Shown here: positions 8,233 through 12,055 of the stretch, piece after piece
How the letters are laid out: each line of letters opens with the position of its first letter
Numbering within the stretch: position 1 is the stretch's first letter
Assembly (NCBI RefSeq): GCF_900112175.1
Contig: NZ_FOYT01000001.1
Location: 1 to 64,000 of the forward strand
DNA length: 64,000 nt
Reading direction: 5' to 3'
Origin: Halogeometricum rufum
GTDB taxonomy: Archaea > Halobacteriota > Halobacteria > Halobacteriales > Haloferacaceae
The notes under the pieces: model-generated
The model's input: only the letters and a program-made list of their open reading frames with translations
What the model was told of the DNA's origin: nothing
Database searches by the model: none
Program-made: the position numbers and the translations under genes

Positions 8233-9966
8233 CTACCGCAGTGCGTCGAGGTCGAACTCGAACGCCGCGACGGGCAGTTCCAGGTCGTGTTCGACCAGCA
8301 CCGCAGGGTGAATCTCGCCGACGACGCCCACGTCCGCGCCGTCGACGACGACGCTGGCGACGCGGCCGTCGATGAACGACGGGTGGTCGGTGGCGGGCGT
8401 CTCCAGTTCGACGCCGAAGTCGCGGCAGAGCGTCTGGAGACGGGCCTTCGCGTCCTCGAAGGTGGCGTCGTGACGGGCGAGGACGCCGGCGACGTGCCGC
8501 CGTTCGGCGACGCGCGTGTTCACCGAGTCGTCGCGTTCGGCGACCAATCCGATTTCGGCGAGGTCCTGCGGGTACGCGCGGTGGGTGTTGTTCTCCAGGA
8601 CCATCAGCAGGGAGGGGAGCGCCCACGTGCGGAGGATGGTGTAGTCCTCGCTGTACGGGCCGGTTATCTCCGCGGCGTCGCCGCCGCCGAGAACCGAACG
8701 TCCGGGTTCGACGCGCATCCGGTCGTACACCTCCGCCTCGCTGGTCATGTGGAAGTTCAGCATGTCCTCGAAGCCGAGTCCCACGAGGGAGTTGCGGGCC
8801 GCGTCCTCCAGTCGGGAGCGTTCGTGGCGGCCGCCGACCGTCCCCACGTTCGGATAGCGCGGTTCGAGTTCGTTGAAGCCGTACGCGCGTCCCACGTCGT
8901 CGATGAGGTCCAACGGGTGGAGCACGTCCACGCGGTACGGCGGAATCGACACCTCGTAGACCACGTCGTCGCTTTCGGCGTCCGCGTCGGCACCGTCGTC
9001 CGCGTTCGCGTCGAGGCCGGACCGTTCGAACAGGTCCACCACCTCGCGCGGTTCGAGGTCGACGCCGAGCATCGTCTCGATGCGGTCGTGCGAGACGTGC
9101 TTCGTGTCCACCTCGAAGTCCGGCCGGACGAGAGAGCCCGACTCGTACTCGACTTCGACCTCCTCGATGGTCGCGCCGCGCGCGTCGAGGGCGTAGCAGA
9201 CGATGTTGCACATCCGGTCGATGGTCCACTGGTCGGTCCCCGTGAGTTCGACGAGCAGTTCGCGGGACTCGGTGGACACCTCGGTCCGGCGGCCGTTGAT
9301 GACCGGCGGGAACGAGAACAGGCCGAGTTCGTCGTATATCGCCGGGTAGCGGTCGTACTCCGAGACGAGGTCGGCGTACGTCTGACCCGTCTGGTGGCGT
9401 TCGAGGACCTCGGCGGGCGTCATCTCCGCGTCGGCGTCGAGGGGGACGAACGTGTCGCCGTCGGGGTCGACGCCGGTGTAGGTGATGGAGTTGCCGCCCG
9501 ACTCCTCGGTGAGCACCTCGCCCTTCAGCATCGTCAGGTCGTGGATGCCGATTGCGCCCTTCGCGCGCTTGCGGCCCATCGTCGCGTGCAGTTTCTCCTG
9601 CAGTTGGATGAGCGAGTCGAGGGCGTCCTCGTCCAGGTCGACCCCGCGGATTATCGCGCCGGTGACGTACGGCCGTTGGTCCGGCACGTCCTCGTCCACG
9701 ACGAACGTGAAGTCGGGGTCGTTCGTCTTCGGGACGTAGACGCCGCGGGAGTCGCCGTACTGGTAGCGGAGCGACCGCGCGACGCCCTCCACGGAGAGCC
9801 TGTCGAGTCGGTCGGGGCCGAACTCCAGTTGGAACGCCCCCTCCTCGGTCTCGCCTTCGAACTCCAGTCCGAGGGCGAACAGGTCCTCCTTGAACTCCTC
9901 GTCGGACTTCTCGTCGTGCCCGGTCAGGTCGCGCAGTTCGTCGGGGTGAACGTCGACGACGGGCAT
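8233..9966 (-). CDS. pheT: Phenylalanyl-tRNA synthetase beta subunit
   Basis: Large structural and editing subunit of the (alpha-beta)2 phenylalanine-tRNA ligase, 577 residues, the usual archaeal length. The start MPVVDVHPDEL at 9966 overlaps the last base of the pheS stop (TAATG), which indicates translational coupling. Visible landmarks are the HTTxG-like B-domain segment with QEKLHATMGRKRAKGAIGIHDL (B3/B4 region), the B5 segment beginning near YALDARGATIEEVEV, and the class II-like catalytic-core remnant (VEVSIPPYRVDVLHPLDLIDDVGRAYG as YEVSIPPYR...). It has no ferredoxin-like C-terminal domain, as expected for archaea. Longer in-frame extensions upstream lie inside pheS and are spurious. 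Confidence 0.95.
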   Translation of the reverse strand: MPVVDVHPDELRDLTGHDEKSDEEFKEDLFALGLEFEGETEEGAFQLEFGPDRLDRLSVEGVARSLRYQYGDSRGVYVPKTNDPDFTFVVDEDVPDQRPYVTGAIIRGVDLDEDALDSLIQLQEKLHATMGRKRAKGAIGIHDLTMLKGEVLTEESGGNSITYTGVDPDGDTFVPLDADAEMTPAEVLERHQTGQTYADLVSEYDRYPAIYDELGLFSFPPVINGRRTEVSTESRELLVELTGTDQWTIDRMCNIVCYALDARGATIEEVEVEYESGSLVRPDFEVDTKHVSHDRIETMLGVDLEPREVVDLFERSGLDANADDGADADAESDDVVYEVSIPPYRVDVLHPLDLIDDVGRAYGFNELEPRYPNVGTVGGRHERSRLEDAARNSLVGLGFEDMLNFHMTSEAEVYDRMRVEPGRSVLGGGDAAEITGPYSEDYTILRTWALPSLLMVLENNTHRAYPQDLAEIGLVAERDDSVNTRVAERRHVAGVLARHDATFEDAKARLQTLCRDFGVELETPATDHPSFIDGRVASVVVDGADVGVVGEIHPAVLVEHDLELPVAAFEFDLDALR

Positions 9967-11471
9967 TATCGGAGCACCTCCGTCTCGCGGAGCAGTTCGA
10001 GGTCGGACATCGTCCCGTGCACGTCGCGTATGTCGTCGAAGCCGTACATGAGCATCAGCAGGCGTTCCAGCGCGAGGCCCCACGCCATCACGTCGCAGTC
10101 GACGCCCAGCGGTTCGAGCACCTCGTCGCGGAACATACCCGAGTTCCCTATCTCTATCAGTTCGCCCGTCTCGGGGTGCCGTCCGAACAGTTCGAACGAC
10201 GGCTCCGTGTAGGGGTTGTAGTGCGGCTTGAACTGGATGTCCGTGATGCCGAACTGCGCGTAGAACTCCTCGAAGGTGCCCATCAGGTCGCGCACCGAGA
10301 GGTCGTCGGCCATCACCCAGCCCTCTATCTGGTAGAACTCCAGCAGGTGGGTCGGGTCCAGCGTGTCGTTGCGGTACACCTTCTCGACGGAGAAGTACCG
10401 CTGCGGCGGTTCCAACTCGCCGACTTCGTGCCCCGAGAGGTAGCGCATCGACAGCGAGGTGGTGTGTCCCCGGAGGGCGATGGCGCGGGCGAAGTCCTCG
10501 GACCACGGCGAGTGGTAGCCGTCGCCGTCCGGGCCGACGCCGTTCCGGTGGGCGTCCTCGACCCGGTCGACCAGGTCCTCGGGCACCTCCTCGATGGGCG
10601 GCACGTCGAGGGCGAACCGGTCCCAGTGGGTCCGCGCCGGGTGGTCCTGCGGCATGAACAGGCAGTCGTTGATCCAGAAGTCCGCGTCGGCGTGCGGTCC
10701 CTCCATCTCCTGAAAGCCCATGCCGACGAGCACGTCCTTCACTCGGTCCGCGGTCTGTCGGAGGATGTGCGTCTTGCCGCCGCGCGCGTCGGGCGCGTCG
10801 GCCTCGACGTTGTACTCGGTGAACTCGACGTCCTGCCACTCGCCGGAGGTGAGCATCTCGGGGGTGAGGCGGTCCACCGTCTCCGCCGCCTCGACGCCCT
10901 CCATGAGGAGGGTGACGCCCGCATCGGTGAGGGTGACCGAGCGGACCGTCTCCTCGTGGCGTTCGACGAGGTTGCGCGAGACGAGTTGGTCGAGTGTGTC
11001 CTCGTCGTCGACCGTCTCGCCGTCCGCGAGGGCGGCCAGGGCGACGGACTCGGCGTCGCTCTCGGCGTCCGCGTCGCCGTCGGCGGCGAGTTCGCCGCCG
11101 TCGATGTCGCCGTAGCCCTTCCGGCCGAAGTTCGCGAGGGCGATATCCACCTCGGGGCCGCCCAGTCCGGCGGCGCCGATGACCTGCCCCATCGGAACCG
11201 GGTCGTCCGTCGCGCCCGCCTCGACGGCGGCGCGGTAGAGTCGCACCTCGGGGAGATCGGACTCGACGTACTCGCGGCCCTCCTCGGTGAGTTCGTGCGT
11301 CACCGCCTCCGCCTCCTCGACGGCGACGTAGCCCTCGTCGCGCAGTTCGAAGGCGGCCTGCGTCACCGTCTCGGGTTTCAGTCCCGTCTCGTCGGCGAGT
11401 TCGCCGACGGTCGTTGCGTCCGTCGCACTCGCGGCGTTCAACACCGCGACCTGTGATTCGGGTAGTTTCAT
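9966..11471 (-). CDS. pheS: Phenylalanyl-tRNA synthetase alpha subunit
   Basis: Catalytic subunit of phenylalanine-tRNA ligase (class II), 501 residues. The N-terminal about 150 residues form winged-helix repeats (VGELADETGLKPETVTQAAFEL, then QVIGAAGL) that bind tRNA in the archaeal/eukaryotic type; a short acidic linker follows near 150. The catalytic core shows motif 1 around HPARTHWDRF, motif 2 in EKVYRNDTLDPTHLLEF, and motif 3 in GLALERLLMLMYG. The start at 11471 gives the canonical MKLPESQ N-terminus. No TATA-like element lies about 27 bases upstream, so transcription probably starts far upstream, near the Phe-rich leader ORF at 11720-11806. It is cotranscribed with pheT. Confidence 0.95.
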   Translation of the reverse strand: MKLPESQVAVLNAASATDATTVGELADETGLKPETVTQAAFELRDEGYVAVEEAEAVTHELTEEGREYVESDLPEVRLYRAAVEAGATDDPVPMGQVIGAAGLGGPEVDIALANFGRKGYGDIDGGELAADGDADAESDAESVALAALADGETVDDEDTLDQLVSRNLVERHEETVRSVTLTDAGVTLLMEGVEAAETVDRLTPEMLTSGEWQDVEFTEYNVEADAPDARGGKTHILRQTADRVKDVLVGMGFQEMEGPHADADFWINDCLFMPQDHPARTHWDRFALDVPPIEEVPEDLVDRVEDAHRNGVGPDGDGYHSPWSEDFARAIALRGHTTSLSMRYLSGHEVGELEPPQRYFSVEKVYRNDTLDPTHLLEFYQIEGWVMADDLSVRDLMGTFEEFYAQFGITDIQFKPHYNPYTEPSFELFGRHPETGELIEIGNSGMFRDEVLEPLGVDCDVMAWGLALERLLMLMYGFDDIRDVHGTMSDLELLRETEVLR

Positions 11472-11535
11472 TTCGTGTTCGCGTCGGTCGTTGTCGCGTC
11501 TACCGGCCGAAGGCCAGTTAGCAGTTCCGAAGCGC

Positions 11536-11553
11536 GCGAGCGAGACCGCTCGC
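11536..11553 (-). promoter_or_regulatory. Second hairpin in pheST leader
   Basis: Perfect 6-bp stem (GCGAGC/GCTCGC) with a 6-base loop, about 65 bases before the pheS start. One arm can alternatively pair with the 3' arm of the large upstream hairpin. It is not followed by a T-run, so it is not an obvious intrinsic terminator. The role is inferred. Confidence 0.35.
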
Positions 11554-11640
11554 ACGGGGCCGGTTCGGGCGGTTTCGTCGCCGGCGGCCGTCGGGACGGC
11601 GTGTGCCGCGCCGACACCCGGCGACGAGTCCGCCGCCCTC

Positions 11641-11720
11641 ACGAGCGCGATTGCATCGGTGCGACGGTGGTCGCCGCCGTCGCGGCAGCGACCCCGGCGC
11701 GAGACGACAATCGCGCTCGT
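11641..11720 (-). promoter_or_regulatory. Nested hairpin in pheST leader
   Basis: A perfect 13-bp inverted repeat (11708-11720 with 11641-11653; arm ACGAGCGCGATTG and its complement) encloses a perfectly paired 11-bp hairpin with one G-U pair and a CGA loop (11669-11693). In the transcript the 5' arm begins at the final A of the leader-peptide stop codon (11720-11722). A ribosome finishing the leader peptide would therefore occupy the arm, while one stalled on the Phe codons would leave it free. The 3' arm can also pair over 6 bases with a downstream 6-bp hairpin at 11536-11553. The pairings are read directly from sequence; the switching role is inferred. Confidence 0.65.
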
Positions 11721-11806
11721 CAGTCGACCCCGAAGAAGAAGCCGAACCCGTCGGTTGCGGTCGGTTCGGACGCGACGCCTCCGCCGTCGGTGGGTCCGGT
11801 CGGCAT
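11720..11806 (-). CDS. Phe-rich leader peptide upstream of pheST
   Basis: A 28-codon ORF on the pheS strand, 249 bases before the pheS start. It ends GFGFFFGVD-stop, with Phe at residues 21, 23, 24 and 25, all TTC codons. It begins with ATG. A T-rich stretch (TTTTG, 11831-11835) sits 27 bases upstream, the spacing of a haloarchaeal TATA box for a leaderless mRNA, so the ORF would be at the very 5' end of the pheS transcript. The stop codon opens the large hairpin at 11641-11720. The layout parallels leader peptides of bacterial phe operons, where ribosome stalling on Phe codons senses charged tRNA-Phe. Translation and regulatory role are unproven. Confidence 0.6.
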   Translation of the reverse strand: MPTGPTDGGGVASEPTATDGFGFFFGVD

Positions 11807-12055
11807 GGTCCCAACGAGCGAGTCGCGGGACAAAACGGTTCCGACTCCGTGCGACGGCGTAGCACGTCCGACGCGCGCCGTCGACGTTCGACGCCCCGCG
11901 TCGGTCTTCGACGCCGCGCGCCCCCGGCCCGCAGCTTCATGTCTGCCGCCGGACATCGATACACCGGGATGAGTGTGCCACGTCCGACTCGCTGGCCGCG
12001 ACGCACCGGAGCGACAGAGTCGCCGTCTCGACCGACCGTCCGGAGGGGTCGATAG

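Follow-up and report, generated by a model that had tools for sequence, protein, structure and literature searches.

A conserved phenylalanine-codon leader upstream of haloarchaeal pheST as a probable tRNA-Phe-sensing attenuator

In Halogeometricum rufum, pheST is preceded on the same strand by a short ORF with a run of Phe codons near its end, two promoter-like elements and several predicted RNA hairpins (Table 1; positions are those of the window, the whole 64,000-nucleotide stretch of DNA that was analyzed). The ORF encodes MPTGPTDGGGVASEPTATDGFGFFFGVD, and 248 nt separate it from the pheS ATG (11471). A preliminary description had identified it as a 28-codon, Phe-rich leader and possible amino-acid-sensing attenuator. 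The ORF lies at the position and on the strand given there, and its conservation in related loci indicates that it is real.

Table 1. Features of the pheS upstream region in the window, in the order in which they would be transcribed.
Feature	Position	Strand	Sequence or detail	Basis
P1, BRE/TATA-like leader promoter	11831..11843	(-)	CGGAACCGTTTTG; AA at -34/-33 and TTTT at -29 to -26 from the leader ATG	position matrix of 74 leaders
Leader ORF	11720..11806	(-)	28 codons, ...GFGFFFGVD, TGA stop; probable leaderless start at the ATG	ORF call and conservation
Arm A of the in-ORF hairpin	11792..11800	(-)	ACCGGACCC; codons 3-5	pairing across leaders
Arm B of the in-ORF hairpin	11741..11749	(-)	GGGTTCGGC; codons G-F-G with the first Phe	pairing across leaders
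Phe-Phe-Phe codons, putative stall site	11732..11740	(-)	TTC TTC TTC	
Lineage-specific inserted hairpin	11641..11720	(-)	13-nt perfect arms ACGAGCGCGATTG (11720-11708) and CAATCGCGCTCGT (11653-11641)	absent in most loci
Conserved RNA element	11567..11638	(-)		covariation; covariance-model match 11643-11560
Element helix 1	11638-11633 with 11572-11567	(-)	GGGCGG with CCGCCC	
Element internal loop	11632-11629 and 11576-11573	(-)	CGGA / GAAA	
Element helix 2	11625-11618 with 11584-11577	(-)	GTCGCCGG with CCGGCGAC	
P2, promoter-like element upstream of pheS	11515..11529	(-)	CGGAACTGCTAACTG	conserved; kept in genomes without the leader
pheS, Phe-tRNA ligase alpha subunit	9966..11471	(-)	pheT next	ORF; PF01409

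A scan of genome contigs provided 80 pheS loci from approximately 25 haloarchaeal genera, or 81 with the window. When a leader was defined as an ATG-initiated ORF of 20-50 codons upstream of pheS with at least three Phe among its last 10 residues, one was present in 72 of the 81 upstream regions versus 0.08 expected by chance from first-order Markov sequences, though these loci share ancestry and the counts overstate their independence. The same ORF test for W, Y, H, I, L, M or C was negative in every pheS upstream region (0/81 each). The ORF and its Phe run recur across most haloarchaeal families, Halobacteriaceae included; no leader turned up in the methanogens and other Halobacteriota that were sampled, or in families f5 and f11. 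Both the leader and the conserved element that follows it are absent in several different groups, and these lineage losses suggest that the control is dispensable. One contig labelled Candidatus Pacearchaeota (locus L044) bears a haloarchaeal pheS with its leader and is probably misbinned.

The leader consensus at pheS loci is MAxE(S/P)...GFGFFFA(R), with the C-terminus as the best-conserved stretch of the peptide and an unconserved middle. The exact GFGFFF string occurs in 39 of 74 leaders. Within these, codon positions 1 and 2 are invariant, variation is confined to synonymous third positions, and the first Phe codon lacks even that, being TTC throughout. Tolerated variants include AFGPFF, GVGFFF, GSGFFF, GFDFFF, GFGFVF and GFGFEF.

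Transcription appears to begin at the leader. With 74 leaders aligned on their ATG, C is found at -37 in 92%, AA at -34/-33 in 95-96% and T at -28 in 97%, and the T-rich box at -29 to -26 has the spacing of leaderless haloarchaeal promoters. The window conforms, with GTTTTG at 11836-11831 and CGGAACC just before it, at leaderless-promoter distance from the ATG. The T-rich element that had been noticed at haloarchaeal TATA spacing in this one genome is therefore held at a fixed distance across the 74 leaders. By dRNA-seq in Haloferax volcanii, Babski et al. (2016; PMC4983044, Table 2) reported a 26-aa uORF (pI 5.9, 2772 Da) before pheS (HVO_2948), a pheS 5'-UTR of 150-250 nt and no additional transcription start site (TSS) at pheS itself, where P2 lies. 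That study describes its uORFs by length, pI and mass only and proposes neither amino-acid sensing nor conservation. Five of our six Haloferax leaders are 26 aa long, three of those with a pI of 5.94 (the H. volcanii sequence is outside this set), and the uORFs reported before HVO_2948 and before HVO_A0127, considered below, are very probably the same leaders as those found here.

The preliminary description had further proposed that the leader opens the pheST mRNA and that pheS itself has no promoter-like element at the spacing seen before the leader ATG. The first proposal is consistent with the H. volcanii start upstream of the uORF and with the fixed spacing of P1, but it has to accommodate P2, a second promoter-like element. 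P2 (consensus CGGAAC(C/T)G(C/T)TAAC) is conserved 35-58 nt before the pheS ATG in nearly all loci, including those where the leader was lost, and with P1-like spacing it would give pheS a 5'-UTR of roughly 7-20 nt. In sequence, pheS is thus not promoterless, although no start is listed there in the H. volcanii data. We read P2 as a basal or conditional promoter of pheS; its presence suggests that transcripts of pheS need not include the leader.

Two segments within the leader ORF form a hairpin (A:B) that is maintained by compensatory change. Codons 3-5 and the three codons that include the first Phe make a mean of 8.14 of 9 pairs, compared with approximately 4 at most other offsets and 5.4 at the best of them. 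This pairing beats all 5000 between-species shuffles (mean 7.47, maximum 7.72), 32 cells have changed on both sides versus 13.1 in shuffles, and all slid registers pair worse; the 4-nt AAAA spacer in the A:B alignment is artificial and unpaired. Compensated variants include TCCGAACCC/GGGTTCGGA (encoding SEP/GFG), CCCGAATCC/GGATTCGGG (PES/GFG), CTCGAACGC/GCGTTCGAG (LER/AFE) and ACCGACCCC/GGGGTCGGG (TDP/GVG), the last with Phe replaced by Val and Glu by Asp. The pairing also holds in most leaders of families beyond the first set, including one from a region of 46% GC. Conservation of the leader N-terminus, and of the G-F-G part of the peptide, is therefore attributable to RNA pairing rather than to the peptide. 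In the window genome, a later TCCGAACC (codons 13-15, 11770-11763) could substitute for arm A. Alternative pairing of arm B with GAAACC or P2 was, on inspection, only partial and inconsistent across lineages, and we do not claim it.

A second structure, the conserved element, follows the stop codon and is distinguished by an invariant internal loop in which YGGA lies opposite GAAA(C). Among 30 diverse sequences, 89% of cells in its helices are paired versus 66.7% after shuffling, double changes occur in 10 of 11 pairs, and the covariation score is 0.481, compared with 0.147 in shuffles and at most 0.197 in slid registers. A covariance model recovered the element in 70 of 74 leader-bearing loci versus none of the seven others, and in six further loci from other families. 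Six of those seven are truly leaderless; the remaining one, from H. pallidum, carries a variant of the element and a degenerate leader that starts with GTG. Relatedness among the loci inflates these counts too, but the joint absence of leader and element noted above affects several distinct groups. A covariance search of 24 genomes found no convincing second copy away from pheS; the weaker matches at other genes that we inspected look like coding sequence, lack leaders and are probably due to chance. We considered a K-turn for the YGGA/GAAAC loop and dropped that reading, as the loop has no 3-nt bulge.

The element keeps its register with the Phe codons more closely than with the stop codon: the last Phe codon lies 17.5 +/- 1.8 nt from YGGA, while the distance from the stop is looser (8.6 +/- 2.6 nt). 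Three genomes appear to depart from this register, the window, H. pallidum and Halogranum rubrum (the latter two being loci L003 and L015), each with an insert of 65-80 nt just past the leader that forms a hairpin unrelated to the other two. Collapsing the inserts restores the Phe-to-element spacing to 19, 20 and 19 nt, respectively. The hairpin nearest the window ORF, a perfect inverted repeat beside the stop, is therefore a lineage-specific insert outside the conserved element. The expectation that the hairpin beside the stop would recur in relatives thus fails for this perfect hairpin, which is missing in most species, and holds for the next one (11638-11567).

Our data suggest that the region acts in cis to regulate pheST in a translation-dependent way, probably as a haloarchaeal leader-peptide attenuator that senses tRNA-Phe; its putative parts are the stalling, the direction in which expression changes and the step at which the output is set. 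The attenuator reading of the preliminary description is supported by leader conservation, the H. volcanii TSS, the compensated A:B pairing and a covarying hairpin in register with the Phe codons. Two findings would have counted against it, a lack of conservation or a transcript start downstream of 11720; the ORF and its Phe run are instead conserved across most haloarchaeal families, and the published H. volcanii start lies upstream of the uORF. A leaderless mRNA would begin at the leader ATG, as the published TSS data indicate for H. volcanii and as is likely in the window. A ribosome would translate approximately 28 codons, open A:B and reach the Phe run. Were charged tRNA-Phe scarce, it would stall there, covering arm B and keeping A:B open, and the post-stop hairpin would be free to fold because helix 1 starts 11-12 nt past the last Phe codon. 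Were Phe-tRNA plentiful, a ribosome at the stop codon would, judging from the geometry, melt helix 1 and allow A:B to re-form.

A ribosome extends approximately 10 nt beyond its A-site codon. When that codon is for Phe, arm B would be covered and the leading edge would fall just short of helix 1; with the ribosome at the stop, helix 1 would be covered and arm B freed. Ribosome position would therefore choose which hairpin exists. On inspection, the two hairpins share no consistent, mutually exclusive base pairing, and only the position of the ribosome would make them exclusive. Bacterial synthetase attenuators suggest by analogy that the Phe-stalled state would correspond to high pheST expression and the stop-codon state to low expression; P2 may supply a basal level. 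No U-tract terminator was found in the leader-pheS interval at the 74 loci, where the longest T run is 3, making a classical intrinsic terminator unlikely. Most likely, transcription would either continue or end, or the leader RNA would be cleaved, with aCPSF1/FttA as a possible agent; control of decay or translation is also possible. Archaeal termination can be factor-dependent through aCPSF1/FttA (PMC8116511).

Alternatively, the nascent peptide could arrest translation, with GFGFFFAR itself stalling the ribosome, for instance in response to free Phe or the state of the ribosome, in place of uncharged tRNA-Phe acting at hungry codons. The frequency of exact GFGFFF and the conservation of the C-terminus are compatible with such an arrest peptide, yet we think it unlikely: variants are tolerated, Phe richness alone is common to the leaders, and RNA pairing accounts for the G-F-G part. 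Codon choice also points to the codons themselves, since TTT accounts for 22% of leader Phe codons versus 4.9% of pheS Phe codons (Fisher p = 2e-17), a 4.5-fold enrichment of this rare codon in the Phe run.

It is also quite improbable that the post-stop element is simply a binding site for PheRS (autoregulation) or another protein, merely exposed by the leader ORF. The invariant GGA/GAAAC internal loop, apparently specific to pheS, would suit a protein site, but this explanation leaves the Phe codons, their register with the element and the pairing inside the ORF unexplained. Protein binding at the element could instead act together with the attenuator.

The conservation of P2 and its retention where the leader was lost might indicate that the leader is a small-protein gene in its own right, placed by chance before a P2-driven pheS, and Babski et al. 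(PMC4983044) raise such a possibility for uORFs of long 5'-UTRs generally. We consider this very improbable, given that no H. volcanii TSS is listed at P2, the middle of the peptide is unconserved, the peptide ends follow RNA pairing and linkage to pheS spans approximately 25 genera. Moreover, in one Halobacteriaceae genome (G001, locus L274), the leader lies approximately 34 nt before the pheS ATG with no intervening P2; this locus, also without the element, is a natural minimal version of the arrangement. Lastly, taken alone, an ORF of 28 codons is nothing unusual in GC-rich DNA, but a chance ORF without function is already refuted by the conservation at 72 of 81 loci against 0.08 expected, the covariation and the published TSS.

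The attenuator reading gains breadth from a second tRNA ligase gene. At trpS2, which encodes a second Trp-tRNA ligase (upstream regions L134, L135 and L143-L172; the window genome is without trpS2), 25 of 33 loci have a leader containing two or more Trp codons, usually as WRW or WRWW, and most of the remainder keep the Trp codons behind a GTG or in a damaged frame. A covarying hairpin (95% paired, with 41 double changes versus 11.8 in shuffles) holds these codons in its loop, and beyond it come a second hairpin at the stop and a pyrimidine-rich tract. A 23-aa uORF is listed before H. volcanii trpS2 (HVO_A0127; PMC4983044, Table 2), and trpS2 leaders are likewise 23 aa long in the homologues closest to the query. 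Neither trpS1 in the window and relatives (no Trp leader) nor trpE, pheA and the tRNA-synt_2b-family synthetases (no convincing cognate-rich leader) show a similar arrangement. In H. volcanii, CRISPRi knock-down of endA lowers tRNA-Trp (log2 -2.7; PMC7714728). As a separate observation, a gene for a chorismate-binding enzyme matches both ends of contig C3 of genome G000 (4-408 and 368868-369311), as if a circular replicon had been cut inside the gene.

On balance, we favor, with some reservation, the broader view that leader-peptide attenuation of tRNA ligase genes (Phe at pheST, Trp at trpS2) is a general haloarchaeal system that evolved independently, operating through leaderless translation and archaeal factor-dependent termination or RNA cleavage rather than bacterial-type terminators. 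Amino-acid leader peptides are a textbook bacterial device. If this view is correct, transcription at these archaeal loci is controlled by where the ribosome stands. Conservation of one case across most of an archaeal class, together with the second case for Trp, would show that RNA polymerase or the mRNA receives information from the leading ribosome. This bears on the open question of archaeal transcription-translation coupling and could be addressed with a reporter in the genetically tractable Haloferax volcanii. A search of the open-access literature found no description of a leader-peptide attenuator in archaea, in line with the preliminary description, which knew of none for an archaeal synthetase operon; a review of archaeal transcription-translation coupling mentions neither attenuation nor leader peptides.

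Several known systems invite comparison. Like a T-box riboswitch, the region lies upstream of a tRNA ligase gene and contains a GG(U/C)GGA motif, but we rejected this assignment: the motif is UGGA or CGGA (C in 11 of 30), a misfit to the ACCA of tRNA-Phe, which needs UGGU, there is no Rfam match, and the region is built around an ORF. Close published counterparts in archaea are the uORFs in long 5'-UTRs of H. volcanii, 26 aa before pheS and 23 aa before trpS2 (Babski et al. 2016; PMC4983044). As in factor-dependent termination of the E. coli tnaC/Rho type, ribosome position in the leader would set the exposure of downstream RNA to a termination factor, which fits the missing U-tract; unlike that type, the haloarchaeal leader has a highly structured element after its stop, and aCPSF1/FttA is the putative archaeal counterpart of the factor.

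Bacterial Phe leader peptides, such as the pheM leader of E. coli pheST and the pheA leader (Rfam Phe_leader), are short ORFs rich in Phe codons at which the ribosome stalls. The haloarchaeal region shares with them a short Phe-rich ORF, before the same synthetase operon in the case of pheM, as well as flanking hairpins and probable stalling. It has a cognate-codon ORF upstream of the gene and conserved RNA structures positioned relative to the Phe codons, and lacks the intrinsic terminator with a U-tract of the classical bacterial attenuator. A cmscan of 11400-12000 returned no match to Phe_leader and one weak, unrelated match overall. The haloarchaeal leader differs further in its leaderless start and in having one hairpin inside the ORF and one GA-loop element after the stop. 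Leader-peptide attenuation is known from bacteria, and its probable archaeal form, with a leaderless start, no U-tract and new hairpins, appears to be new.
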